Source: Streptomyces sp. NBC_01235 (GTDB lineage: Bacteria > Actinomycetota > Actinomycetes > Streptomycetales > Streptomycetaceae). From it: a DNA stretch of 64,000 bases. This document shows positions 4,013-15,000 of the stretch, one piece after another (the stretch's first letter is position 1; every line of letters begins with the position of its first letter). The stretch spans positions 8,432,001-8,496,000 of the forward strand of contig NZ_CP108513.1 of the NCBI RefSeq assembly GCF_035989285.1. Direction: 5' to 3'. Position numbers and translations under genes: made by a program. A model generated the notes under the pieces. It was not told where the DNA came from. It was given only the letters and a program-made list of their open reading frames with translations, and made no database searches.

Positions 4013-5541
4013 GAGCTCAGGGAACGCGTTTCCGCGCCCCCCGACTGCACGCCCCCCGACTGCGTGCCCACCGACTGCGCGGCCTGCGCGTGCGGTTGGT
4101 GGTGGCGTTCGCGCTGGTCGCCGCCGTCACCGCCACGACCACCGGCGCGCTCACCTTCCGGGAGGCGCGCACCGGAGTGCTCCAGCAGAGCCAGGACACC
4201 GTGATCAAACTGCTGCGCACCCAGGTGACCCGGCTCGCCCCCGAGCTCACCTTCCCGCCGAACGAGGCCGAACTGCGGCGGTTCGCGACGGAGGTGGCCG
4301 GCGCCGAGCAGTCGGGCACCTGGCGGGTGCTGGTCGCCTATCGCGGACTGGAGGCCACATCCGTGCCCGACGACCCGTTCGTCGAGCTGACGCCCGCCCT
4401 GCGCGAGGCCGTGAACTCCAGGTCGGCCACCGTCTTCCAGCGGGTCAACCGCGCGGACCACACGGCACTCCTCGTCGGCATGTCGGTCACCTTCGCCTCC
4501 TCCGACTCCTCGGGCACCGGACCCCTCTCCGGTGTGAAGGTGTTCCTGACGGTGCCGCAGACCACGGAACAGGCCTACGTCGACGCCCTGGTCACCGCCA
4601 TGGAGCGGGCCGCCGTACCCGCCCTGGTCCTCGCCGTCCTGCTCGCGCTGCTCGCCGCCCGCGGGGTGCTGCGGCCGGTGCGCGCGCTGCGGCAGGCCAC
4701 CCGCAGCATCGCCGAGGGCCGGCTGGACATCCGGCTCGCCGTCGACGGGTCGGACGAACTCGCCGAGCTGTCGCACACGTTCAACGAGACGGCCGCCGCC
4801 CTGGAGGAGACGGTGGCCGAACTGCGCGGCATGGAGGCCCGGGCCCGTCGTTTCGCCGCCGACGTCTCGCACGAACTGCGCACTCCGCTGGCCGCCATGT
4901 CGGCCGTCACCGACGTCCTCGACGAGGACGCCGCCCGCCTCGACCCGGACACCGCCACCGCGGTCCGGCTGATCAGCGAGGAGACCGTGAAACTGGCCCG
5001 ACTGGTCGACGACCTGATGGAGATCTCCCGCTTCGACGCAGGCGCGGCCGTGCTGCACCTGGACGAGATCGACCTCGCCGAATCCCTCAGGCGCACCCTC
5101 GCCTCCCGCGGCTGGACCGACACGGTCGACACTCTGCTGCCGGCGCCGGACGCGCTGCGCGGACGCGTTGATCCGCGCCGCCTCGACGTCGTCGTCGCGA
5201 ACCTGGTCGGCAACGCCCTGCGGCACGGCGCCCGGCCGGTGCGCTTGAGCCTCCACGCGGACGACCGGCCCGGCGACGGGCGGCGGGCGGTCATCGAGGT
5301 GCTGGACAGTGGGCCGGGCATCCCCGACAGTGTGCTGCCCCACGTCTTCGAACGCTTCTACAAGTCGGACGCCGCCCGGTCCCGGACCGAGGGCAGCGGC
5401 CTGGGACTGGCGATCACGGAGGAGAACGTCCGGATGCACGGCGGCACCGTCCGGGCGGCGAACCGGCCGGACGGCGGCGCCGTCTTCACCGTGGAACTCC
5501 CGCTGCGGCGGGACGAGTCGACAGGGGAGGAGCGACCGTGA
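4009..5541 (+). CDS. Sensor histidine kinase, HAMP/HisKA type
   Basis: A 510-aa membrane kinase, partner of the preceding response regulator. Membrane helix 1 lies at about 25-46, an extracytoplasmic sensor domain of about 155 residues follows, and helix 2 is near 203-221. A HAMP linker leads to a HisKA box, FAADVSHELRTPL, with the phosphorylated His288. The ATPase domain shows the N box (LVGNALRHG), the G1 box (DSGPGIP), the F box (FERFYK) and the G2 box (GSGLGLAI). It starts at a GTG within the stop of the regulator and its own stop overlaps the lipoprotein start, so all three proteins are probably made in coupled amounts. The signal sensed is unknown. Confidence 0.94.
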   Translation: MRAQGTRFRAPRLHAPRLRAHRLRGLRVRLVVAFALVAAVTATTTGALTFREARTGVLQQSQDTVIKLLRTQVTRLAPELTFPPNEAELRRFATEVAGAEQSGTWRVLVAYRGLEATSVPDDPFVELTPALREAVNSRSATVFQRVNRADHTALLVGMSVTFASSDSSGTGPLSGVKVFLTVPQTTEQAYVDALVTAMERAAVPALVLAVLLALLAARGVLRPVRALRQATRSIAEGRLDIRLAVDGSDELAELSHTFNETAAALEETVAELRGMEARARRFAADVSHELRTPLAAMSAVTDVLDEDAARLDPDTATAVRLISEETVKLARLVDDLMEISRFDAGAAVLHLDEIDLAESLRRTLASRGWTDTVDTLLPAPDALRGRVDPRRLDVVVANLVGNALRHGARPVRLSLHADDRPGDGRRAVIEVLDSGPGIPDSVLPHVFERFYKSDAARSRTEGSGLGLAITEENVRMHGGTVRAANRPDGGAVFTVELPLRRDESTGEERP

Positions 5542-6248
5542 GAGCCCTGCGCCGAGCCGTGCTGTTGTGCGTCCCGGCACTGTGCACGCTGGTCTCCTGC
5601 GGCATTCCCGCGACCGGAGTGGTGGAGGCGGGCGGACCCGCCCACGGGATCGTGCCGACGGTACGGGTCTACCTCGTCGACGGCGATGCCCTGGTCGCCG
5701 TCCCCCGCAGGATCGCCGGACAGGTCGGCGTCGAGTCGGCAGTGAAGGCGCTCCTCCTGGGCCCGACGGAGGCGGAACGGGCGAAGCGCCTGACCACGCT
5801 GCTGCCGCAGGTGCCAACCCCGACGTCCTTCCTGGGCGCTGCCCCCGCCACCAATCCGTCCGGCGTCCCCACCATTGAGCCGTCGGGCGCCGCCGCCGCC
5901 GATCCGTCGGGCGCCGCCACCGCCGATCCGTCGGGCGCCGCCACCGCCGATCCGTCGGGCGTCCCCACCATCGATCCGTCGGGCGTCCCCACCATCGAGC
6001 CGTCCGGCGCCGCCGCCGAGGGTCCGGAGCCGGCCGCCGTGCGGGTGGCCACTCGGGGCGACGAGGTCTCCATCCAACTGCTTTCCGTCACCGCGGAGTT
6101 GACCCAGCTCGCCGCGGCGCAGCTGATCTGCACGGCCGTCGACGCCCGTCACACCGACGGCCCCGAAATCGAGACCGTGACCGTGACGGTGACGAACGCG
6201 GTCGGCCGGAGCGTCGAGGGATCCGACGAGCGCTGCCCCGACCTCTGA
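5538..6248 (+). CDS. Repeat-containing lipoprotein coupled to the two-component system
   Basis: A 236-aa lipoprotein with signal peptide and lipobox ending at Cys21 (LVSCG). Residues about 40-100 (VRVYLVDGDALVAVPRRI, ESAVKALLLGPTEAE) resemble the GerMN-type domain found in actinobacterial lipoproteins. A stretch at about 107-162 consists of octapeptide repeats PSG(A/V)(A/P)(A/T)(A/I)(D/E). The GTG start overlaps the kinase stop. By analogy with kinase-lipoprotein pairs such as CseA/CseC or LpqB/MtrB, it may sit outside the membrane and modulate the kinase; this is an inference from position and lipidation. Confidence 0.85.
   Translation: MRALRRAVLLCVPALCTLVSCGIPATGVVEAGGPAHGIVPTVRVYLVDGDALVAVPRRIAGQVGVESAVKALLLGPTEAERAKRLTTLLPQVPTPTSFLGAAPATNPSGVPTIEPSGAAAADPSGAATADPSGAATADPSGVPTIDPSGVPTIEPSGAAAEGPEPAAVRVATRGDEVSIQLLSVTAELTQLAAAQLICTAVDARHTDGPEIETVTVTVTNAVGRSVEGSDERCPDL
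5856..6023 (+). repeat. Seven 24-bp in-frame repeats inside the lipoprotein gene
   Basis: Seven consecutive 24-bp units (for example gatccgtcgggcgccgccac plus cgcc) encode PSG-xxxx-D/E octapeptides. Units with VPTI alternate with units with AATA or AAAA, which suggests repeated slippage or unequal exchange. Copy number probably varies between strains without breaking the frame. Confidence 0.85.
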
Positions 6249-6262
6249 CCCGCGTAATCGAA

Positions 6263-6299
6263 TTGCACGAGACGTATCGTCTCGCTTACGGTCGACGGC
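6263..6299 (+). promoter_or_regulatory. Promoter with TetR-like operator before the glycosyltransferase
   Basis: A perfect palindrome CGAGACG-TAT-CGTCTCG occupies 6268-6284, directly after a -35-like TTGCAC (6263-6268) and 16 bp before the start codon. The arm length, AT centre and overlap with the promoter fit a TetR-family repressor site. No TetR gene lies adjacent; the nearest one (8662-9321) belongs to the inserted element and its own intergenic palindrome has a different sequence. Confidence 0.55.
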
Positions 6300-7496
6300 A
6301 TGACCAGTCGCCCCGCCCATGTCGCCATGTTCTCCTTCGCCGCCCACGGCCACGTGAACCCGAGCCTGGAGGTGATCCGCGAGCTCGTCGCGCGCGGGCA
6401 CCGGGTGACGTACGCGATTCCGCCCGTCTTCGCCGAGAAGGTCGCCGGCGTGGGCTCCGAGCCAAGGCCGTGGCACTCGACGCTGCCCTCGCCCGACGAC
6501 GACCCCTCCGCCTGGGGGAACACCCTCCTCGACCACGTGGAACTCTTCCTGGCCGACGCGATCCAGGCGCTGCCTCAGCTGATCGAGGCTTATGACGGGG
6601 ACGAGCCGGACCTCGTCCTGCACGACATCACCTCCTACCCGGCGCGCGTCCTCGCCCACCGCTGGGGCGTCCCCGCGATCTCCCTCTCGCCCAACCTCGT
6701 CGCCTGGGAGGGCTACGAGAAGGAGGTCGCCGAACCGATGTGGGCCGAGCCGAGGAAGACAGAACGCGGAAAGGCTTACTACGCCCGTTTCCACGCCTGG
6801 CTGGAGGAGAACGGGATCACCGAGCACCCAGACCCCTTCGTCGGCCGCCCCGCCCGCTCCCTCGTGCTGATCCCGAGGGCGCTGCAGCCCCACGCCGACC
6901 GGGTCGACGAAAGCGTGTACACGTTCGTCGGCGCCTGCCAGGGCGACCGTGTGGCCGAGGGTGACTGGACGCGGCCCGCCGGCGCGGAGAAGGTCGTACT
7001 CGTCTCGCTGGGCTCGACCTTCACCGACCGGCCGGAGTTCTACCGGGAGTGCGTGCGGGCCTTCGGCGGACTGCCCGGCTGGCACCTCGTGCTCCAGATC
7101 GGCTCTCACGTCGACCCCGCCGCGCTGGGCGTCGTACCCGACAACGTCGAAGTACGGTCCTGGGTACCGCAGTTGGCGGTGCTGGGGCAGGCCGACCTGT
7201 TCGTCACGCACGCCGGTGCGGGCGGCAGTCAGGAGGGGCTGGCCACGGCCACACCGATGATCGCCGTACCGCAGGCCGTCGACCAGTTCGGCAACGCGGA
7301 CGTCCTGGAGGGGCTCGGTGTCGCCCGGCACATCGCCACGACGGACGCGACGGCGGAGGTCCTGCGGGAGGCTGCCCTCGCGCTCGTCGACGACCCGGAG
7401 GTCGCCCGCCGACTCCAGGCAATCCGGGCGGAGATGGCGAACGAGGGTGGCACCTTGCGGGCGGCGGACCTCGTCGAGGCCGAACTCCCCGGCTGA
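6300..7496 (+). CDS. Macrolide-type UDP-glycosyltransferase (GT1, MGT family)
   Basis: A 398-aa soluble GT-B fold enzyme. The N-terminal acceptor domain begins [18 protein letters not shown], with the His usually acting as catalytic base near residue 18. The C-terminal donor domain contains the GT1 signature [13 protein letters not shown]...P.I..PQAVDQ (about 302-330), which binds UDP-sugar. Relatives such as OleD and Mgt inactivate macrolides by glucosylating them in the cytoplasm, so a resistance or detoxification role is likely. The gene stands alone behind a palindromic operator. An RBS-like gaaagga and an ATG at 7506 follow its stop, but that putative next gene is cut by the transposon end. 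Confidence 0.9.
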
Positions 7497-7516
7497 GAAA
7501 GGACGATGACGACCCC

Positions 7517-7554
7517 GGGGATCAATCGAACCTTGGTTGGCGTTGAGATTGATC
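7517..7554 (+). repeat. Left terminal inverted repeat (38 bp)
   Basis: It begins GGGGATCAATCGAACCTTGG and ends GATTGATC. It pairs with 12975-13012 with two mismatches (positions 17 and 27). The last two bases lie inside the stop codon of the resolvase gene, so the gene reads right to the element end. Confidence 0.88.
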
Positions 7555-8485
7555 ACGGTCCCGCTGTGGCCGGAAGGGTATTGACGCGGTTCTTGTACTC
7601 GCGGCGGGCCTTGCGCCGTGCCGGGACCTCCGGAACGCGCTGGGTGCCGTCGAGGGGTTGGCAGCGGGCGAGGAGCTGGCGGTGAAGTGCGGGGGTAGTG
7701 CTGACTCGCAGGGTGTAGCCCTGGCCGCGCCGTACGGTGACGCCGTGGTCGAACGCGGCCCGCTCGGCGGGCTCCAGCTCGGTGGCGCGTAGGAAGTCGG
7801 CGACCTTGCCCGGCATGTCGAGGGTGACCGACAGCTCCGGGGTCGGGGCGTCCTCGCGGCCGACGGCGGTGTGCTCGGGCATGAGGCCGGCGACGGCCGT
7901 ACGGACGGCACCGCGGCTGACGCTATGTTCGCGGGCCAGGGCGGCGATGGACCGGCCGTCCAAGTACGCCGTGCGGACGGCGTCCGTCTTCCCGGCCGCG
8001 ATGGCGGGGCGACGGCCGCCCTTGCTGCCCTTGGTCTCCGCGGCCCGCAGCCCGTCGTAGGTCAGCTCGCGCTGGAGGTCGCGCTGGAGTTCACCGGCTG
8101 CTGCGAGGGTCCGCACCATGAACTTCACGGTGGACAGCAGTTCTCCGGTGCGCGGGTGGCGGGCGGTGAGGTCCATCGCGCAGAACGCGCCGTCGTGGAT
8201 GCGCAGGTCGAGCCGGTCGCGGTGGAGGACGTCGAGCACGTCGAGGATGTGCTTGGTGCCGCGTACAAGGCGGAACATCTCGGAGATGTGCACGGTGTCG
8301 CCCGGCCGCGCGTACGTGAGCAGCTCGCCGAACTTCGGCCGCTGGAGTGGGTGGAGGCGGCTGGAGGTGCCCGCGTCCTCCTCGAAGGCGACTGGGTCGT
8401 CGATCCCGGCCTCGTCGAGGACGAGGTTCTGCCGGGCGGTCGCCTGCTGGTCGGTCGAGACCCGCTTGTAGATCAGGTTCGCCAT
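7553..8485 (-). CDS. tnpR: Tn3-family serine resolvase (site-specific recombinase)
   Basis: A 310-aa serine recombinase. The N-terminal catalytic domain starts MANLIYKRVSTDQQ with the nucleophile Ser10 in its standard place, and continues through the EDAGTSSRLHPLQRPKF and VRGTKHILDVLDVLHRDR regions of the resolvase fold. The C-terminal part (about 175-235) has a helix-turn-helix (RSIAALAREHSVSRGAVRTA). About 70 additional residues follow, longer than Tn3 TnpR. ATG 8485 has a GGAAGGGA Shine-Dalgarno 6 nt upstream. Its role would be to resolve cointegrates at a res site, probably in the 8486-8611 segment upstream, though I could not define the res subsites. Confidence 0.9.
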   Translation of the reverse strand: MANLIYKRVSTDQQATARQNLVLDEAGIDDPVAFEEDAGTSSRLHPLQRPKFGELLTYARPGDTVHISEMFRLVRGTKHILDVLDVLHRDRLDLRIHDGAFCAMDLTARHPRTGELLSTVKFMVRTLAAAGELQRDLQRELTYDGLRAAETKGSKGGRRPAIAAGKTDAVRTAYLDGRSIAALAREHSVSRGAVRTAVAGLMPEHTAVGREDAPTPELSVTLDMPGKVADFLRATELEPAERAAFDHGVTVRRGQGYTLRVSTTPALHRQLLARCQPLDGTQRVPEVPARRKARREYKNRVNTLPATAGP

Positions 8486-8611
8486 CGGGGTCCCTTCCAC
8501 GCGGAGGAACGGACCCCACCTGTCGTCAAACCCTGTCATCAATCACCATCGGAACCGATTGGATCGGCGCCGCCCCGGCGCCCCGGAATGTCCGGGTTCA
8601 TTGGATGCTCA

Positions 8612-8651
8612 CGCGCCCTGTCGGCAAACGATCGTTTGCCGACAGGGCGCG
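8612..8651. terminator. 40-bp perfect palindrome between tetR and the resolvase
   Basis: Both halves are exact complements over 20 bp (CGCGCCCTGTCGGCAAACGA and its complement), with an AAACGATCGTTT centre. It sits 10 bp after the tetR stop and upstream of the resolvase start on the same strand. A long GC-rich stem fits an intrinsic terminator for tetR. The AAACGATCGTTT core also looks like a TetR-family operator, so control of the resolvase by the TetR protein is an alternative. Confidence 0.7.
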
Positions 8652-8661
8652 AGCAGGTCGG

Positions 8662-9321
8662 CTAGCTCGGGCGGATTGCGGCCTCGATGTGGGCGAGTTG
8701 GGCGGCGAGGATCTCTTCGAACGCCGCGCGGCGATCCACCCCGAGGGGGCGGACGTCGCGGGCGAAGTGGGCCAGGGCGGGGAAGCGTTCGGGGTCGGCG
8801 CCGAGTACCGCGACGCGGAACAGCTCCATGCCCTGTTCGTACTCTTCCGGGGTGATGGTACTGACTCCGGCCTCGGAGGCGATCAACGCGGCGATGAGGA
8901 CCGCGAGCCGGTGGTAGCGCGCCGGGATCTCCTCGTCGGGCAGCCCCGACGCGCGCAGGGCCTGCAGCACCTCTTCCATGACCAGCCGGGAACCGGCGCC
9001 GCCTGACGCGTACCGTCCCCAGACCGCGGCGAGCTGAGGCTGCTGGCCGAACGCCTCTCTCACGCGCAGGGCCAGGGCGGTGATGCGCTGCTTCCAGTCG
9101 CCCTCGGCGAGGTAGCCGTCCATGGAGGCCAGGAGGATCCGGTCGGCGACCGCGCGCAGCAGTTCTGTCTTGCTGCGGAAGTGCCGGTAGAGGCTGGAGG
9201 AATCGGTCCCGAGGGTCGCGGCGAGCTTGCGCACGCTGAACGACTCTGTGTCGCTCGTGCGCAGCAACTTCGCTGCCGCATCCAGGATTTCCTCGGTCGA
9301 CCAACGCCTTCGACCTGCCAT
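8662..9321 (-). CDS. TetR/AcrR-family transcriptional repressor
   Basis: A 219-aa regulator. The N-terminal helix-turn-helix (about 23-45, SVRKLAATLGTDSSSLYRHF) is typical of TetR proteins, and an all-helical ligand domain follows (LALRVREAFGQQPQLAAVWGRYA; GAGSRLVMEEVLQALRASGL), as in TetR_C subfamilies. ATG 9321 is preceded by GAGAGGGG. It is divergent from the serine hydrolase at 9508, and a perfect 17-bp palindrome lies between them, so it probably represses that hydrolase and itself. It is part of the cargo of the inverted-repeat-bounded element. Confidence 0.92.
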   Translation of the reverse strand: MAGRRRWSTEEILDAAAKLLRTSDTESFSVRKLAATLGTDSSSLYRHFRSKTELLRAVADRILLASMDGYLAEGDWKQRITALALRVREAFGQQPQLAAVWGRYASGGAGSRLVMEEVLQALRASGLPDEEIPARYHRLAVLIAALIASEAGVSTITPEEYEQGMELFRVAVLGADPERFPALAHFARDVRPLGVDRRAAFEEILAAQLAHIEAAIRPS

Positions 9322-9358
9322 TTCGCCCCTCTCATCGCACCCAGTTTAACCTATGCAC

Positions 9359-9386
9359 TTGGTGTTGCACGCACTGCGTGCATAAT
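9359..9386 (+). promoter_or_regulatory. Divergent tetR/hydrolase operator-promoter
   Basis: A perfect palindrome TGCACGCA-C-TGCGTGCA covers 9366-9382. A -35-like TTGGTG (9359-9364) and a -10-like CATAAT (9381-9386), 16 bp apart, place the palindrome inside the promoter of the plus-strand hydrolase. An extra half-site atgcac lies at 9353-9358. Binding of the adjacent TetR protein here would block the promoter. Confidence 0.65.
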
Positions 9387-9507
9387 GAGGACATGGGTGT
9401 GCCGAGCGACCCGGCAGCAGGCGGGCCGACGTGCCACGCGTGCCCTGTCACCCGGGTCGGGCGACCGACGTGGAGCTCACCCCGAGCAATGCGAAAGGAC
9501 GCATGTC

Positions 9508-10626
9508 GTGAGGAACTCACTGGATCCCGCGGAGCTGAACGCCGCCATCGAGAACGTCCACCGCGCCGGGATGCCGGGCCTGTTCGCCGAGGTGCGTGAC
9601 GGCGACCAGGTCTGGCGCGGCGCCGCCGGGGTCGCCGATGTCGCCACCGGTCGCCCCGTCACTGCCGACATGCGGCACCGCGTCGGCAGCACCACCAAGA
9701 CCTTCACCGCCGCCGCGGTTCTGCAGCAGGTCGAGAGCGGTCGGATCGGTCTCGACACACCGATCGGCCAGTACCTTCCGAAGTTGGTTCCCGGAGAACG
9801 CGGTGACGCGATCACGGTCCGGATGCTGATCAACCACACCAGCGGCCTCGCCGAGTACCTCCCGTACGCGTACCCCTCCCTCAAGGCGTACCCCGCCCTC
9901 GCAGACACCGGACCCCAGAGCCTGGACGACCACCGGCTCACCCGGTTCGACCCCGCTGAACTGATCGAGATGGGGGTCACCGCACCTGCCGTCGGCGCCC
10001 CGGGTGGTACGCCGGGGGTGTACTCCAACACCAACTACCTGCTCCTCGCCCAGCTCCTGGAACAGGTGACCGGCACCACGGCCGAGCGGTACATCACCCG
10101 GAACGTCATCGAGCGCGCCGGGCTCCGGGACACCGAACTCCCCATCGGACCGTACGTCGACGGGCCGCACTCGCAGCTCTACGAGTCATGGTTCGGCATG
10201 ATCGACCCGCCGCGCGACTACAGCGTCTACGACATGTCATGGGTGGGCCCGGCGGCCTCCCTGATATCGACCGTCGCGGACCTCAACCGCTTCTACCGCC
10301 TGCTGCTGGCCGGCGAGATCATCAGCCCGTCGTCGCTGGCCCAGATGCAACGCACCGTCCCGGTCATCTCCCAAGAGGGAAAGACAATCGACTACGGCCT
10401 CGGCCTCCACCCGACGGAGGCTGCCGGTCAGGCCACCTTCTGGGGCCACGGAGGCACGGTCTGGGGTGGCGGAGCGCTGGCCATGACCCGCGCCGACGGC
10501 AAGCGGCAGATGGCCGTCGCGCTGAACCTCCAGAGGTGGAACAGGCTCGACTCCTCCGGCAAGCCGCAGCCCCATCCCATCGACGACGCGCTTGTGACTC
10601 TGTACCGCGTGGCGATGTACGGCTGA
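9508..10626 (+). CDS. Serine hydrolase, class C beta-lactamase/DD-peptidase fold
   Basis: A 372-aa protein with the three penicillin-binding motifs: SxxK as S61-T-T-K64 (nucleophile and base), YxN as Y172-S-N174, and H314-G-G in place of KTG. The arrangement resembles the R61 DD-peptidase and EstB-type esterases. GTG 9508 is chosen because aaagga lies 8 nt upstream; ATG codons further up are out of frame. No signal peptide is visible, unlike R61, so it may act in the cytoplasm as an esterase or amidase, not on cell wall. It is divergent from tetR and probably regulated by it. True beta-lactamase activity is uncertain. Confidence 0.87.
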   Translation: MRNSLDPAELNAAIENVHRAGMPGLFAEVRDGDQVWRGAAGVADVATGRPVTADMRHRVGSTTKTFTAAAVLQQVESGRIGLDTPIGQYLPKLVPGERGDAITVRMLINHTSGLAEYLPYAYPSLKAYPALADTGPQSLDDHRLTRFDPAELIEMGVTAPAVGAPGGTPGVYSNTNYLLLAQLLEQVTGTTAERYITRNVIERAGLRDTELPIGPYVDGPHSQLYESWFGMIDPPRDYSVYDMSWVGPAASLISTVADLNRFYRLLLAGEIISPSSLAQMQRTVPVISQEGKTIDYGLGLHPTEAAGQATFWGHGGTVWGGGALAMTRADGKRQMAVALNLQRWNRLDSSGKPQPHPIDDALVTLYRVAMYG

Positions 10627-10750
10627 CCGAGACCGTGGGCGAGGGGTTGGTGGCACCGTTCGGCCTGTACCTGGACCGCATAGTCCGGATCACCCTGCTC
10701 CCGGCGAACTGATCAGCGCCCTGGAGGCCCCCGGCTGAACCCGTTGGCCC

Positions 10751-10993
10751 TCATTCCTCCTCCTCGTCCTCGTCAAGGCCGCCCGCACCCGGGTCCCGCA
10801 GTGGGCGCAGGCCGCCGTATACGGGGGTGGAGGAGCGGAAGCTGTAGCGGCCGAGCATGTTGAGGTTCGCGTGCTTGAGCGGAGAGACGCGGGCGACATC
10901 CTCGTCCCGGACGTCGTGCTCGCGCTCGTTGGCCGGCAGCGCCCGCAACTCCTCGACTGCGGCGTCCAGATAGCGGGCAGAGCACGGCGGCAT
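10751..10993 (-). pseudogene. tnpA: C-terminal remnant of a Tn3-family TnpA transposase
   Basis: The readable residues are ARYLDAAVEELRALPANE, then VRDEDVARVSPLKHANLNML-GRYSF and LRPLRDP with an acidic tail. This is the conserved end of Tn3-family TnpA (SPLxHxxLNxLGRYSF). About 900 residues that should precede it are missing. In a neighbouring frame the upstream bases spell LVLLFVVNAAVL, like the hydrophobic segment normally just before it, suggesting a frameshift near the break at about 10990. It shows that a full Tn3-type transposon once stood here. Confidence 0.8.
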
Positions 10994-10994
10994 T

Positions 10995-11440
10995 CACCAC
11001 GAAGAGAAGTACGAGGTGCGCTTCAACCTCAAGGGCGAAGCCGTCAAGGTCCGCCCTGATGCCGACCTGTCTGGCGTCGAGTGGCTCGCCGAGAAGATCG
11101 GCCGCCGCCTTCACGCGGTGGCCGCGGCTGGTGCGGACGGCACATCTCGCGGCCCTGCCCGAAGACCGCGGCCGACGGCTGCTACTTCTGCCAGGACTTC
11201 CAGAGCGATCGGCAGTTCCTGCCGGTTCACCGCGACACCCTTGCCCGCACGCGGGAGTTGCAGGCCGACGCCACGGCAGCCGGCCGGTCACGAGCCGCCG
11301 AGGTCAACGAGCGGCCGGCGGCCGCGGTCGAGCACGTCATCACGCGCATCACCGACCAGGAGCACGACGAGCTGTCCCCAGCACCGAACGACGCCGGGGC
11401 AAGGCACGACGAAACGGAGGGGACTGCCGATGCGGGCTGA
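10995..11440 (+). pseudogene. C-terminal remnant of a Tn554-like tyrosine recombinase
   Basis: From about 11140 the plus strand encodes CPKTAADGCYFCQDFQSDRQ, FLPVHRDTLARTRELQADA and AAEVNERPAAAVEHVITRI, matching the cysteine-containing tail of large tyrosine recombinases (TnpB-like) that accompany TnpC/DUF6262 genes in actinobacterial Tn554-type elements. Upstream, in another frame, YEVRFNLKGEAVKVRPDADL and GVEWLAEKIGRRLHAV reads as protein-like but I cannot place it. The catalytic domain is gone. The stop at 11440 overlaps the next start by 11 bp, the usual coupling. Confidence 0.6.
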
Positions 11441-11840
11441 CAACTCGGCGCACCTGGCCGAAGCCGCACAACAGCGACGTCTCGCCTGTATCGAGCGTGT
11501 CCGCGCCGTCCTGGACGCCCTGGAACACGACGGCGGAGCGATGACCGTCGCTGGCGTCGCCGTCCGGGCCGGGGCCTCCCGGAGCTTCCTCTACGACGCT
11601 GCCCAGGCACCACTGTTCGCCAGACTGCGCGACCTCGCCGACAAGCAGCCCTCCACGGGGCGACCCGCTCTGCCCGAACAGCAGAGAATCACCACCAAGT
11701 CGCACGAGACGGTAGTAAGAGCGCTGCGGGACGCAAACCTCAAACTGCACGGGGAGAACGAACGGCTTCGCAACGAACTCGCAGTGGCCCTCGGCCGGCT
11801 CCGAGACCTCCGCCGAGGCGTCGGTGCATCCGTTGACTGA
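11430..11840 (+). CDS. DUF6262 family protein, TnpC-like accessory of a Tn554-type element
   Basis: A 136-aa protein. The first part (HLAEAAQQRRLACIERVRA, MTVAGVAVRAGASRSFLYDA) forms a helix-turn-helix, and the C-terminal third (VRALRDANLKLHGENERLRN, ELAVALGRLRDLRR) is a coiled coil. This layout is that of DUF6262 proteins that follow tyrosine recombinases in Tn554-like elements, where TnpC influences orientation and frequency of transposition. ATG 11430 has a cggagggg box and overlaps the recombinase remnant. It appears intact although its partner recombinase is destroyed, so it may be a relic or may have a residual regulatory role. Confidence 0.8.
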   Translation: MRADNSAHLAEAAQQRRLACIERVRAVLDALEHDGGAMTVAGVAVRAGASRSFLYDAAQAPLFARLRDLADKQPSTGRPALPEQQRITTKSHETVVRALRDANLKLHGENERLRNELAVALGRLRDLRRGVGASVD

Positions 11841-11928
11841 GCGCATCAGCTTCGCGGCCAACCTTGGTGATGCAATTGCCCTTCCGGGCCGATGAGTTGG
11901 CGTCAGCTGTCGATCGGGCCGGTGACCG

Positions 11929-12654
11929 TTACAGGTCCGATGCGGCGATCCAGCAAATCGTCGCCACCAGATCTGGAGCCTTGTCGGTTGCTTCGGCTGC
12001 CAGCAAAGCCCAGTCCCGGCAGTCAGCCACGATCCGAGCCCAGGGCAGTCGGCGGTCAACCTCCCAGTCGATGCCCGGACCATGGCCTCCGAAGGCCTCG
12101 CCACCGGGCTTGACCTGCCAAATCTGGAAATAGAGCACCGCCTGACCGTGAGCAGCAAGCTGCTCAATGACTTCGGCGAGGTGGACTGTCGGCCATGCCG
12201 GATCCAAGTACTCCAGCGAACGCCGCAACGCAGCGGCCCTGGGCGGGACCACGACGTCACGGGCACCGAGTTCACTCAGCGCCCAGCGAAGTGCCACTCC
12301 TTCACTGTCGTCCGGGGCCTCACCCCGCTGCCGAAAGGATTCATAGGCTCGCTGAAGTCCCGGCACCGCACGCTGGATGCCCAGGTCCGCCAAGGCTTCG
12401 GCCGCCCATTGGCGAACGGTGGAGTTCCCGCTGTCCAGCAGGCCGACCAGCACGTCACCCGGCAGTGGATCCTGCAGCGCGGTGAAGACCTCAATGGCAC
12501 ACAGTTGTCCGAACGGTTCCAGACCGGATACTGCCGCGATCAGCTCGTTCAGCACTTCTGGCCCCATAGCGATCAGCGCATGCTGGGCGTCCTCTGCCAC
12601 TTCGCTTGATTCCGCGTCCAGTTCGCCAACCCTCTGGGCAACCGTGCCGTCCAT
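11929..12654 (-). CDS. HEAT-repeat protein
   Basis: A 241-aa protein with helical repeats in its first half: EDAQHALIAMGPEVLNELIA, LCAIEVFTALQDPLPGDVLV-GLLDSGNSTVRQWAAEAL and VPGLQRAYESF. These resemble PBS-lyase/HEAT repeats used as protein scaffolds. The C-terminal half (from about 140; AEVIEQLAAHGQAVLYFQIW) is a separate region that I do not recognise. It is the last gene inside the right inverted repeat, so it is probably cargo. It could be an immunity or adaptor-type protein; no enzymatic motif is visible. Confidence 0.75.
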   Translation of the reverse strand: MDGTVAQRVGELDAESSEVAEDAQHALIAMGPEVLNELIAAVSGLEPFGQLCAIEVFTALQDPLPGDVLVGLLDSGNSTVRQWAAEALADLGIQRAVPGLQRAYESFRQRGEAPDDSEGVALRWALSELGARDVVVPPRAAALRRSLEYLDPAWPTVHLAEVIEQLAAHGQAVLYFQIWQVKPGGEAFGGHGPGIDWEVDRRLPWARIVADCRDWALLAAEATDKAPDLVATICWIAASDL

Positions 12655-12974
12655 GCCCCTGAGTCTGGCTCGGCGTCACCCACCACGGCCACTCGATAAA
12701 CCACTCGCCCATGCCCACGACAACGTTGCTGTCCACGGACCTCGGACGACCGGACGCTCGGTCACAGCACGCTGGGACGGCACGTGGCTGACACTGTCAG
12801 CAACACGAAACCACAGCTCCAACCGACCAGGGAGAACGAAAGATCCAGATAACGGCCTGGTCGTCAGTCAGGAATTCCACCGGCACCCGGCGGACGGTAG
12901 CCACCCGTCATCCGAGCCCACCGAGCTTCCAGAGAAACCTGACGCCGCATCCCGGAGCCGTGCCAGACGGCCAA

Positions 12975-13012
12975 GATCAATCTCAGCGCCAACCACGGTT
13001 CGATTGATCCCC
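12975..13012 (-). repeat. Right terminal inverted repeat (38 bp)
   Basis: Read on the minus strand it begins GGGGATCAATCGAACCGTGG and ends GATTGATC, 36/38 identical to the left end. Four further bases (GGGG, 13013-13016) mirror the CCCC outside the left end. No direct target duplication follows. Confidence 0.88.
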
Positions 13013-13022
13013 GGGGCCGGAT

Positions 13023-13061
13023 GAGGGCCCGTCGACTCCCTGGGGAAGTCGATGGGCCCTC
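13023..13061. terminator. Strong hairpin next to the element end
   Basis: Arms GAGGGCCCGTCGACT and AGTCGATGGGCCCTC pair over 15 bp with a single G-T pair and a 9-base loop. It could be the original terminator of the glycosyltransferase transcription unit, separated from it by the insertion. It also lies where the guide segment of the tnpB omega-RNA would fall. Confidence 0.65.
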
Positions 13062-13116
13062 GGTTCATGACCGTTCAAGAGGGTTGAGGAGGGTTCCGCA
13101 GGGCCTCAGACCGTTC

Positions 13117-14820
13117 CTAAAGACTGAGCGGGAGTGAGTCCTGTTGCCAGAACCCATGCTCGGCCGAACGCCCCGAACGGTGTTGGGCGTTCTGGTTGCC
13201 CGCGTTCGCTCCGCGTCCGGGCGGCACGGATCGTGTCCGTGGTCCGGGGATGCGGGGGCGGGTTCCCTCACGCCCAAGGACGCCCGGTCGGGCCTGGACG
13301 GTCCGATGCCCCACCGCATCACTCCGGTGCTGTGGGGGCGGTGTCGTCCGTCGCCGGATCGGGTGTCCCTGGGCGCGCCTTCCGATCGCCACGGCGGCAG
13401 CGTCGTGGCGAGTGGTCTTACGGGTGGTGCTGGTGAGGGGCTTCTGCCAGTGCTGGGCGCCCCACTTCGAGGTGTAGGCAGGGTCCACCGCGATGACCGC
13501 GATACCCGTGGCGTCGGCCATCGAAGACAATCGGGCGCGGAGTTTCCCGGTGGGCATGCCGGAGATCAGCTGCCGGAAGCGTTTCCGGCGGCCGTGCTTC
13601 TCACGGGTCTTCTCGGCGGCGAAGTCCAGGTCCTCGACGGCAATCGCCCGCGCGCCGCACGTTCGGGCCCAGTGCAGGAGGCGGGTCAGGGCGTGGCGGA
13701 CCTGGGCGTCGCGGTGCTGCGCGGTGCCGGTCAGGTCGTAGAAGAAGCGGCGCGGGGCGCCGGTCGGGTTGCCGTTCACGTCCAAGCGCCAGGCAGCGAG
13801 GTGATCAGCGTTCATGTCGACGCCGATCACTCCGTGGGCCAGGGCGGCCTCGATGGGGAGGGTGGGGGTGGGCGGGATCTGCCAGGAGGCGGTCAGGTAC
13901 CAGCGGTCCCGGCCCATGTCGATGGGGGTCCCCCCGGTCGAGCGAAGTCGAGAGTGGGGGAGGAGGCGGTAGGCGATCGCCCGGTTGGCTGCGACGCGGT
14001 CCGCCCACTCGCCTCCCCGGTGCGCGAACGCGACCCGGCAGGCCAGGACGTACCGTCCGTGCGGGGCGTTGGCCAGATGCGCGAGCGGCGCGGGGAGTTT
14101 GAGGCTCACCTCTCCGTCGGGGCTGACCCGGATCGTCTCGTTGCCGTACCGCTTGCCGGACTCACCGTCCGCCTGGCAGAACCAGCGCTCGGCCTCCCAG
14201 CCCCGGCGCCACTGCGACTCCGTGAGCCCGGCCTCGTCCAGGTGGTGCCGGGTGCGGGCCAGGCTCTTGCCGCCGCGCACCACGTGCACGAGTCCGGCCT
14301 CGCGGTCGGCCCGCGCAGCGGCCAGCCGGTCCTGAAGCACCCGCAGACGCCGGGACTTCGCATGCCACTCCCGCCGCGACCGGTAACCGCCCGGGGCCTG
14401 CCTGGTCCCCTTCTGCCCGACCGGCTGGGACAGCCGGTGCTCGATGGTGCGGACGCCCGCTTCCAGGTTCTGGATGTGCGCCAGCTGGCAGCGGCGGGCC
14501 AGCGCCCACTGGTCGTGCGAGGCCTTGGTGATCGCCCCGGCCCACCGCGACGACGAGAGCGGCGTCAGCTCCCGCTTGCGTCCCGCCCACGTCTCAGCGG
14601 AGTGCTCCAGGCCATCCCGGCAGCGCGCCCTGAGATCCTTCGAGGCCAGCGACCCCAGATGCGCGCCGACCAGACGCAGCACCTTCTCATCGTCCGGCGC
14701 CAGGTGCTTGAGCCGGGTCCGGATGGCCACACCACTCGGACCGGACACGACGAACGACGCCGCCACACTCCTCAGCCCGCCCACCCCGTCACCCCCGACC
14801 CCACCCGAAGAACCCGTCAT
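13117..14820 (-). CDS. tnpB: TnpB-family RNA-guided nuclease (IS605/IS607-type OrfB) without zinc finger
   Basis: A 567-aa protein of the Streptomyces TnpB lineage. The RuvC-like acidic residues are all present: D335 (GVIGVDMNADH), E396 (IAVEDLDF) and D473 (TTRHDAAAVAIG). Between the last two, where TnpB normally has a four-cysteine zinc ribbon, the text reads DPAYTSKWGAQHWQKPLT with no Cys. A 39-bp palindromic repeat adds 13 residues at about 288-300. ATG 14820 is chosen as the start giving a length normal for the lineage; upstream in-frame starts exist and no good RBS is seen. No TnpA transposase is nearby. It may be a domesticated or stranded tnpB. Confidence 0.85.
   Translation of the reverse strand: MTGSSGGVGGDGVGGLRSVAASFVVSGPSGVAIRTRLKHLAPDDEKVLRLVGAHLGSLASKDLRARCRDGLEHSAETWAGRKRELTPLSSSRWAGAITKASHDQWALARRCQLAHIQNLEAGVRTIEHRLSQPVGQKGTRQAPGGYRSRREWHAKSRRLRVLQDRLAAARADREAGLVHVVRGGKSLARTRHHLDEAGLTESQWRRGWEAERWFCQADGESGKRYGNETIRVSPDGEVSLKLPAPLAHLANAPHGRYVLACRVAFAHRGGEWADRVAANRAIAYRLLPHSRLRSTGGTPIDMGRDRWYLTASWQIPPTPTLPIEAALAHGVIGVDMNADHLAAWRLDVNGNPTGAPRRFFYDLTGTAQHRDAQVRHALTRLLHWARTCGARAIAVEDLDFAAEKTREKHGRRKRFRQLISGMPTGKLRARLSSMADATGIAVIAVDPAYTSKWGAQHWQKPLTSTTRKTTRHDAAAVAIGRRAQGHPIRRRTTPPPQHRSDAVGHRTVQARPGVLGREGTRPRIPGPRTRSVPPGRGANAGNQNAQHRSGRSAEHGFWQQDSLPLSL
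13924..13962. repeat. 39-bp REP-like palindrome inserted in frame in tnpB
   Basis: The sequence gggggtccccccggtcgagc plus a mirrored second half has strong GC arms (ctcccccac / gggggga) around a variable loop. It is the same family as 37997-38035 (31/39 identical, differences confined mainly to the loop). In tnpB it inserts exactly 13 codons between two conserved segments (AIAYRL and DRWYLTASW). I know this palindrome type as a dispersed Streptomyces repeat. Confidence 0.75.
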
Positions 14821-15000
14821 CGCATCCAACGAGCAGTTCCGTAGAAGGTCACGCATTCGACGCGAGAACGTCAGTTCCCCCCTTAATACCGGTGCCATGG
14901 CCGAGGCACGCGACACGACACCGACCCCCGGCACTCACTCCCACTCACCAGAACACCCCTGAACACACTCCAGCGATAGCAGCTCCAAACCCTCACACCC

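Follow-up and report, generated by a model that had tools for sequence, protein, structure and literature searches.

How did the remains of two transposons of different families come to lie one inside the other in a Streptomyces chromosome? The question is raised by a 64,000-nucleotide stretch of Streptomyces sp. NBC_01235 (the window; bases 8,432,001-8,496,000 of an 11.09-Mb single-contig genome), in which an initial annotation, made from the letters alone, had described a decayed Tn3-family element with a second, broken Tn554-like element nested within it. Our analysis bears out this nesting and leads us to conclude, with high confidence, that the locus as a whole is best explained by a nested Tn3/Tn554-like history ending in one deletion. 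We observed the ends of the outer element and its target duplication, relatives that lack the insert, intact-looking sibling elements, an insertion that four loci share to the nucleotide, host elements of separate descent, and the joint at which the two elements now meet. The nested element did not land at random; its insertion was site-specific.

The outer element is a Tn3-family transposon with 45-bp ends

The outer element spans 7510-13019 (5,510 bp). It had been given ends of exactly 38 bp, and the 38-bp units at 7517-7554 and 12975-13012 are indeed alike at 36/38 positions and start with GGGG. The repeat, however, runs on to 45 bp, with a resolvase-side end at 7510-7554 (+) and a tnpA-side end at 12975-13019 (-) that differ by three mismatches (93% complementary) and are bounded by a perfect 5-bp direct repeat, GATGA (7505-7509 and 13020-13024, both +), the left copy being placed by sequence and by a position rule drawn from 20 element pairs of the family. 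Of these pairs, the window among them, 16 have a perfect 5-bp duplication immediately beyond bp 45 (7 bp outside the GGGG), while none of the 20 has one at any of 11 other offsets (0-6 and 8-11 bp outside the GGGG, where 0 is bp 38). The position of the duplication at bp 45 is not due to chance and, since it lies 7 bp outside the GGGG, the transposed unit is 7510-13019.

Tn3-family transposons, which transpose replicatively through cointegrates, are recognised by long inverted repeats (at least 38 bp), a 5-bp target duplication and a site-specific resolution system; here we found 45-bp repeats, GATGA on both sides, and a PF00239 resolvase with an upstream palindrome of putative res function. 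We assign the outer element to this family as a new member; as initially claimed, its interior keeps the resolvase and an 80-residue tail of TnpA, the large DDE transposase that also marks the family (the last ~75-80 codons of tnpA, 10751-11005, -; PF01526 E 0.0014, below the cut-off). This tail and the outer 166-169 bp are matched, each at its expected place, by one and the same sibling family. They therefore belong to a single element, and we reject the idea that the tail came from another Tn3 than the ends.

When 295 genomes of the genus were scanned for the 38-bp end pattern, with up to 3 mismatches allowed, 10 of them, the window's own included, contained it; a scan of named genomes with the TnpA of one sibling (L017; loci are given as L numbers) yielded 77 loci. 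Two full-length relatives with an apparently intact tnpA came to light. L017 itself, carried by NZ_CP108570.1, a circular 80-kb plasmid of Streptomyces sp. NBC_01197, has the order end, tnpA (a 1051-residue TnpA homologue annotated as Tn3 family transposase), TetR, SDR, VOC, resolvase, end, with the duplication TTGTC. The second, in Streptantibioticus ferralitis (L034), has two perfect 38-bp units, and its tnpA and resolvase are 96% and 85% identical to those of L017. The window matches L017 DNA at 86% over 1140 bp of the resolvase module, at 79% in the tnpA tail and at 86% over the tnpA-side 169 bp; at the amino acid level its resolvase is 83% identical (tblastn) and its TnpA tail 72% identical over 75 residues.

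With L017 TnpA as query, no close intact tnpA was found in the window's own genome: all eight matches, the window tail among them, are partial, and the best matching pair, located at 3.27 Mb, shows 44-54% identity and is spread over two overlapping frames. Mobilisation of the outer ends in trans is possible in principle. The same genome holds a second decayed sibling at 0.90 Mb (L016, G000:C1 889500-908000, at about 5919-9145), which contains a tnpA tail, LysR, SDR and one end, with no resolvase match. Another sibling, L018 (11283-14139), is a 2.9-kb unit with three end copies, no tnpA match and the duplication GTCTT; it also carries broken resolvase pieces and a peptidase-like open reading frame (ORF), which we take to resemble methionine aminopeptidase.

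The glycosyltransferase gene upstream of the element (window 6300-7496) was matched in 64 of the 81 genomes searched, and regions were fetched for 14 of the better ones. None of these 14 regions matches 7498-14999 (bit score over 80), so that all 14 relatives lack the insert; the downstream MMPL gene resumes inside the fetched stretch in nine and not in five. In the relatives a terminator-like hairpin stands 3' of the glycosyltransferase gene in all ten printed gaps (by eye), and in the window a terminator-like hairpin of the host (13025-13059) lies outside the element, just past the right GATGA. Since the relatives' hairpin follows the gene and that of the window lies past the right duplication, the outer element was most likely inserted between the gene and its terminator. 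Ends, duplication and relatives together support a decayed element that was inserted rather than ancestral; the two outcomes named at the outset as contrary to this, repeats independent of a Tn3 tnpA and an ancestral 5.5 kb, were not found.

A Tn554-like element interrupts tnpA at codon 11

Tn3 sequence stops at tnpA codon 11, between window positions 12854 and 12853: the first 11 codons (12854-12886, -) are interrupted after ...CAGGCC, and the TnpC-side end of a Tn554-like element (12789-12853, -) begins with GTTATCTG on the - strand at 12853. Elements of the Tn554 type are characterised by two tyrosine recombinases and TnpC, of which the window keeps TnpC (DUF6262; 11430-11840, +; PF19776 E 2.1e-7; 82% to that of locus L042) and the C-terminal remnant of the long tyrosine recombinase TnpB (10999-11440, +; homology to L042 tnpB, tblastn); DNA identity to L042 is 82.7% over 10999-11822. 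No close Tn554-like recombinase was found in the window's own genome, which gave three weak matches (at most 34% identity).

Between the surviving Tn554-like end and tnpC sits a gene for a HEAT-like protein (11929-12654, -; weak HEAT matches, best E 3.8e-5, below the cut-off), in a slot whose length differs in the relatives L042, L080 and L158. Because it lies between that end and tnpC, in a slot of variable sequence, the position of the HEAT-like gene suggests that it is likely to be cargo of the inner element. Thus all three genes initially listed as cargo of the Tn3 element (tetR, hydrolase and HEAT) are present, but the last most likely belongs to the Tn554-like insert. HEAT relatives occur in 36 of the 295 genus genomes (E<=1e-15, own included).

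On the opposite side, Tn554-like tnpB homology reaches 10999 and Tn3 tnpA homology starts at 11005; the few bases common to both mark the deletion joint as a short shared sequence (10998-11005). We infer that, in an L042-like ancestor, one ~6-kb deletion took away the second recombinase and one end together with the greater part of tnpB and, in tnpA, codons 12 to ~970. Because this one deletion would run from the Tn554-like tnpB to the end of the Tn3 tnpA, both elements would be dead here, and the window copy is presumably inactive today.

The same nucleotide is interrupted in separate Tn3 hosts

The junction CAGGC[CT]/GTTATCTG is identical in the window and in L042, L080 and L158, the last located on a Streptomyces sp. 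NBC_01006 plasmid of 571 kb; L152 (G209), which by its length is the contig of L080, did not enter the count separately. All three of these loci carry a complete Tn554-like trio at the same tnpA nucleotide, which in L042 comprises two PF00589 recombinases and a TnpC homologue. The site is uninterrupted in 39 loci (43 tnpA copies), where it mostly reads GAGCAGGC[CT]GAGGCGTACGG; L043, whose tnpA starts at residue 7, was left out of this count. Tn554-related elements leave a 6-bp footprint and make no target duplication, and putative footprint 6-mers stand here at both ends of the inserts (L042 AGGCTG/AGGCTG, L158 AGGCCG/AGGCCG, L080 AGGCTG/AAGCTG). The right-junction 6-mer of L080 (AAGCTG, about 7995-8010) is a variant that stands uninterrupted in the L060 tnpA, and is possibly the footprint of an earlier residence.

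The left flank groups the window with L017/L034/L088, L042 with L060, and L158 with L040/L041/L052, and the right flank groups L042 with L060 and L080 with L053/L056/L061/L067/L162/L163. Approximately unbiased (AU) tests rejected a one-clade origin of the insertion-bearing hosts on the right flank (p-AU 2.7e-10; 3 of 36 rows) and on the left (p-AU 7.2e-18; 4 of 13 rows). The specific target site of Tn554 thus has its counterpart here, in one nucleotide used in four loci whose hosts are not one clade. The Tn554-like cores of L042, L080 and L158 are 90.5-91.4% identical, whereas their right flanks are 83.8% (L042/L080), 83.6% (L042/L158) and under 81% (L080/L158) identical, and for this reason the Tn554-like inserts appear to postdate the divergence of their Tn3 hosts.

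Targets of Tn554-like elements

To how many targets does this habit extend? We placed 21 loci: 12 from 392 genus genomes (every match at E<=1e-60), 7 from 121 plasmid records, the window and L042; the other 114 plasmid records, Enterococcus and Staphylococcus among them, fall outside the placed sample. In 17 of the 21 the insertion interrupts another element's transposase, integrase or TniB gene. Tn3 tnpA is the target at codon 11 in the window, L042, L080 and L158, and elsewhere in a distant tnpA in L216 and L218; IS256-type transposases are cut in L213 and L214, both at PF00872 position 337/338, IS5-type transposases in L156 and L157, tyrosine recombinases in L153, L154, L155, L212, L217 and L222 (with PF00589 extending to 150-151 in L222 and L212), and TniB in L215. 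A habit confined to mobile genes is rejected, as DUF5999 genes are the target in the other four loci (L219, L220, L221, L223). These four belong to a Tn554-like branch of their own, with TnpA identity of about 41%, and in L219 the insertion falls at position 40 of the 57 positions of PF19462.

Pfam supports both flanks in L213, L214 and L157, and one flank in L156, L212, L215, L216, L218, L222, L158 and L219; in L154 the support is weak (E 0.008, below the cut-off), and L153, L155, L217, L220, L221 and L223, together with the other flank of several loci, were assigned by eye from translations. The TnpA-side ends of L156, L157 and L213 were placed by estimated offset. Since the printed flanks of L154 and L217 are identical, and L219/L220 and L221/L223 are homologous sites, there are fewer than 21 independent events. 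Because mobile genes abound on plasmids, the plasmid records are biased towards such targets; among the genome matches alone, 8 of 12 lie in transposition genes.

Classical Tn554 uses another gene as its target. On balance, we lean towards the view that the actinobacterial Tn554-like elements are hyperparasites of mobile elements, each sublineage having adopted as its site a conserved codon in a different transposition gene: codon 11 of Tn3 tnpA, a second site in another Tn3 tnpA, IS256-type and IS5-type transposases, a tyrosine recombinase and TniB. Transposase genes are very common in bacteria, and an attachment site at a conserved codon offers both a constant target and travel with the host element. 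If this view holds, such hyperparasites would spread wherever other elements spread, silencing or re-starting the host transposase, which would explain the spread of Tn554-like elements in actinobacteria and amount to a natural control on other elements that lends itself to testing. The window copy is a dead remnant; what makes it interesting is the target habit it brought to light. Our literature search found no Tn554-like element aimed at transposase genes, within a coverage of titles, abstract openings and selected passages from which most subscription papers were absent.

Resolution site, cargo slot and neighbouring genes

The serine resolvase (310 residues, 7553-8485, -; PF00239 E 1.4e-17; start set by homology) has an in-frame ratio of non-synonymous to synonymous substitution (dN/dS) of 0.41 against L017 and 0.33 against L034. 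Upstream of it, the putative res region (8486-8655) contains a perfect 40-bp palindrome (8612-8651). Palindrome-like sequence of the CCTGTCGTCAAACGATCGTTTGACGACAGG type precedes the resolvase in the window and in 15 sibling loci, imperfectly in several of these 16 aligned regions, and the alignment shows unrelated sequence on its cargo side and conserved sequence on its resolvase side. We therefore read the palindrome as a putative res subsite I and as the likely boundary between cargo and backbone, which is in line with the module exchange at res subsite I described in the accessible text of a published study (PMC7157771). That it is a mere tetR terminator is disfavoured, as a similar palindrome precedes the resolvase whatever the cargo. 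In L091 the res-like palindrome is displaced, closer to the resolvase gene; upstream of 11917 it adjoins the motif proximal to the resolvase, as though the sequence in between had been lost through recombination of one subsite with another.

The cargo proper consists of a TetR regulator (8662-9321, -; PF00440/PF02909) and a serine hydrolase of the beta-lactamase/DD-peptidase family (9508-10626, +; PF00144 E 2.2e-65), whose relatives of solved structure, judged by sequence, are DD-carboxypeptidases, 1cef among them, and the alkaline D-peptidase 4y7p. The two are 96.8% and 89.5% identical to copies in Streptomyces calidiresistens (L086), where the pair also follows a tnpA tail. Since dN/dS is 0.12 for TetR and 0.30 for the hydrolase, both genes look maintained.

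The cargo had been called unusual, which does not hold for this family. A Pfam survey of 60 hand-picked proteins, a subset of the ORFs of 25 sibling loci (L016 of the window's own genome included), revealed varied cassettes between tnpA and the recombinase, of which TetR plus hydrolase is one. The slot holds an S15 peptidase with TetR (L039), MerB with MerR (L040), ArsR with a P-type ATPase (L066), TetR with an FAD monooxygenase (L052) or a methyltransferase (L045), LysR with SDRs (L062), a DndB-type protein (L059), MFS proteins (L079, L091) or PF00144 hydrolases (L034, L049), and one cassette is common to L041 and L044. A recognisable regulator is present in 15 of the 25 sampled loci, and in the window. 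The 45-bp ends and palindrome-bounded slot let annotators delimit Streptomyces Tn3 elements that carry regulator-plus-enzyme cassettes.

We reject the possibility that the TetR-hydrolase pair is specific to the outer element, as the cassette, which is also seen by itself, is matched in at least 94 of the 295 genus genomes (E<=1e-60, own included), and at least 24 besides the window's own match nearly the whole of it; these are lower bounds, two candidates per genome having been scored. The flanks of 12 of these copies have sequence in common in five pairings only. A half-palindrome follows tetR at the same offset in five of 16 cassette copies, with 0 (L195), 1 (L086), 1 (L198), 4 (L194) and 4 (L200) mismatches in 16 positions (no more than 6 of 2000 shuffles did as well), and is not convincing in the other 11 copies checked. 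At L195 1463-3358 a distant Tn3-type tnpA (22% identity) lies near a free-standing cassette with the full palindrome core.

Beyond the host hairpin, a TnpB/Cas12f-like ORF (13117-14934, -; PF07282 E 0.00078, below the cut-off) is likewise unmatched in the fetched relatives and, given this and its position, looks like a separate insertion; a 72% homologue lies near another Tn3 of the outer element's family (L091 14394-16022). On the other side of the element, ORF 5538-6248 contains a 24-bp tandem repeat (5817-6056).

Proposed history and its alternatives

The outer element would belong to a set of actinobacterial Tn3 transposons whose ends measure 45 bp, whose resolvase is of the serine type and whose cargo lies in a slot between tnpA and a res-like palindrome. 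Carrying the TetR and serine-hydrolase cassette, it would have moved into the gap between glycosyltransferase gene and terminator, duplicating GATGA. Before or after that move, a site-specific Tn554-like element with two tyrosine recombinases and TnpC would have entered tnpA at codon 11, probably bringing the HEAT-like gene, and a single later deletion, from the Tn554-like tnpB to ~codon 970 of tnpA, would have removed both recombination machineries. The order of the Tn554-like insertion and the Tn3 transposition, like the single deletion step, is what we infer.

Could the shared nucleotide reflect descent, with one ancestral Tn554-like insertion in tnpA spread by recombination that swapped the Tn3 flanks? 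The likeness of the L042, L080 and L158 cores would fit, as would the exchanged look of the family's backbone modules, for example at the res-like palindrome. Both flanks, however, group the hosts with different insertion-free Tn3 elements, one-clade trees were rejected, and distant relatives (42-50% TnpA identity) reuse exact positions elsewhere, such as that in the two IS256-type transposases, which makes this descent distinctly improbable. Several points nevertheless weigh against repeated insertion and other parts of our account. The left-flank test is based on 166 columns; the right tnpA flank of the window is deleted, so that it is placed by its left flank only; and the left flank of L080 falls in one group with L042, L039 and L060, so that on this side the case for separate insertion is weakest for the pair L042/L080. 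One gain followed by many losses is formally possible, four of the 20 element pairs (L041, L052, L065, L066) are without a perfect duplication at bp 45, and no Tn554-like genes were found near the three HEAT relatives examined (L207-L209).

A further question is when tnpA was lost. TIMEs are miniature Tn3-derived elements without coding capacity that are mobilised in trans, and the outer element might have lost tnpA first and then moved here as a non-autonomous, TIME-like unit. Two nearly intact ends bounded by a perfect duplication suit this idea, as do siblings that lack a full tnpA yet have duplications (L018, 2.9 kb; L083, 1.1 kb). The duplication, though, proves only one joint move of the ends; the one further end copy in the window's own genome, L016, has no HEAT or TnpC match, nor do the end-bearing loci of the nine other genomes among the 295 scanned, and a close intact tnpA was not found in the own genome. 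We consider such a move unlikely, if somewhat less so than the ancestral insertion; the outer element itself, at 5.5 kb with resolvase, TetR and hydrolase ORFs, is neither miniature nor non-coding. An ordinary decayed Tn3 with 38-bp ends, a random nested insertion and unusual cargo would account for the real resolvase and tnpA tail and for the 36/38 matching ends, but is hardly credible given 45-bp ends, nesting at one nucleotide in four loci and the varied cassettes in the slot of siblings. The nested history ending in one deletion remains our preferred account.

Comparison with known systems

Comparisons are with the cited papers as far as their text was accessible. Tn4556 of Streptomyces fradiae is a 6.6-kb class II transposon with 38-bp inverted repeats and a PF00589 TnpR on the complementary strand (PMC6403206). 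Compared by description only, it resembles the outer element as a Streptomyces class II transposon with the order tnpA-cargo-tnpR, 5-bp duplications and a palindrome proposed as res, whereas the outer element has 45-bp repeats and a serine resolvase (PF00239) colinear with tnpA (PMC6403206). Tn3-family repeats are given as 38 to 40 bp, sometimes longer, so that the 45-bp ends, although longer than those of Tn4556, are within the stated family range (PMC6403206, PMC7157771). Exchange at res subsite I has been proposed for TnTsp1/Tn5501 (PMC7157771). In Tn3 elements with toxin-antitoxin modules, the module abuts res upstream of the resolvase, as does the cargo here; other passengers of those elements generally lie away from the transposition module, whereas regulator, enzyme and transporter cassettes abut res in the outer element's family (PMC7157771). 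TIMEs, as non-autonomous Tn3 derivatives with ends, are comparable to the outer element, which differs in being 5.5 kb long with resolvase and cargo (PMC4133298, PMC13367494).

Actinobacterial Tn554-related elements were defined in 2012 (PMC3414803), and target specificity with a 6-bp footprint is described for Tn554 (PMC10214605). The inner element shares with both a long and a normal-sized tyrosine recombinase, TnpC and target specificity; the accessible accounts name no target gene for the actinobacterial class, whereas here 17 of 21 insertions lie in transposition genes of other elements (PMC3414803, PMC10214605). Transposons of the Tn5053 type likewise enter other transposons, but do so as res-site hunters, whereas the inner element and its relatives, with enzymes of another family, are found at fixed tnpA codons (PMC7765201).

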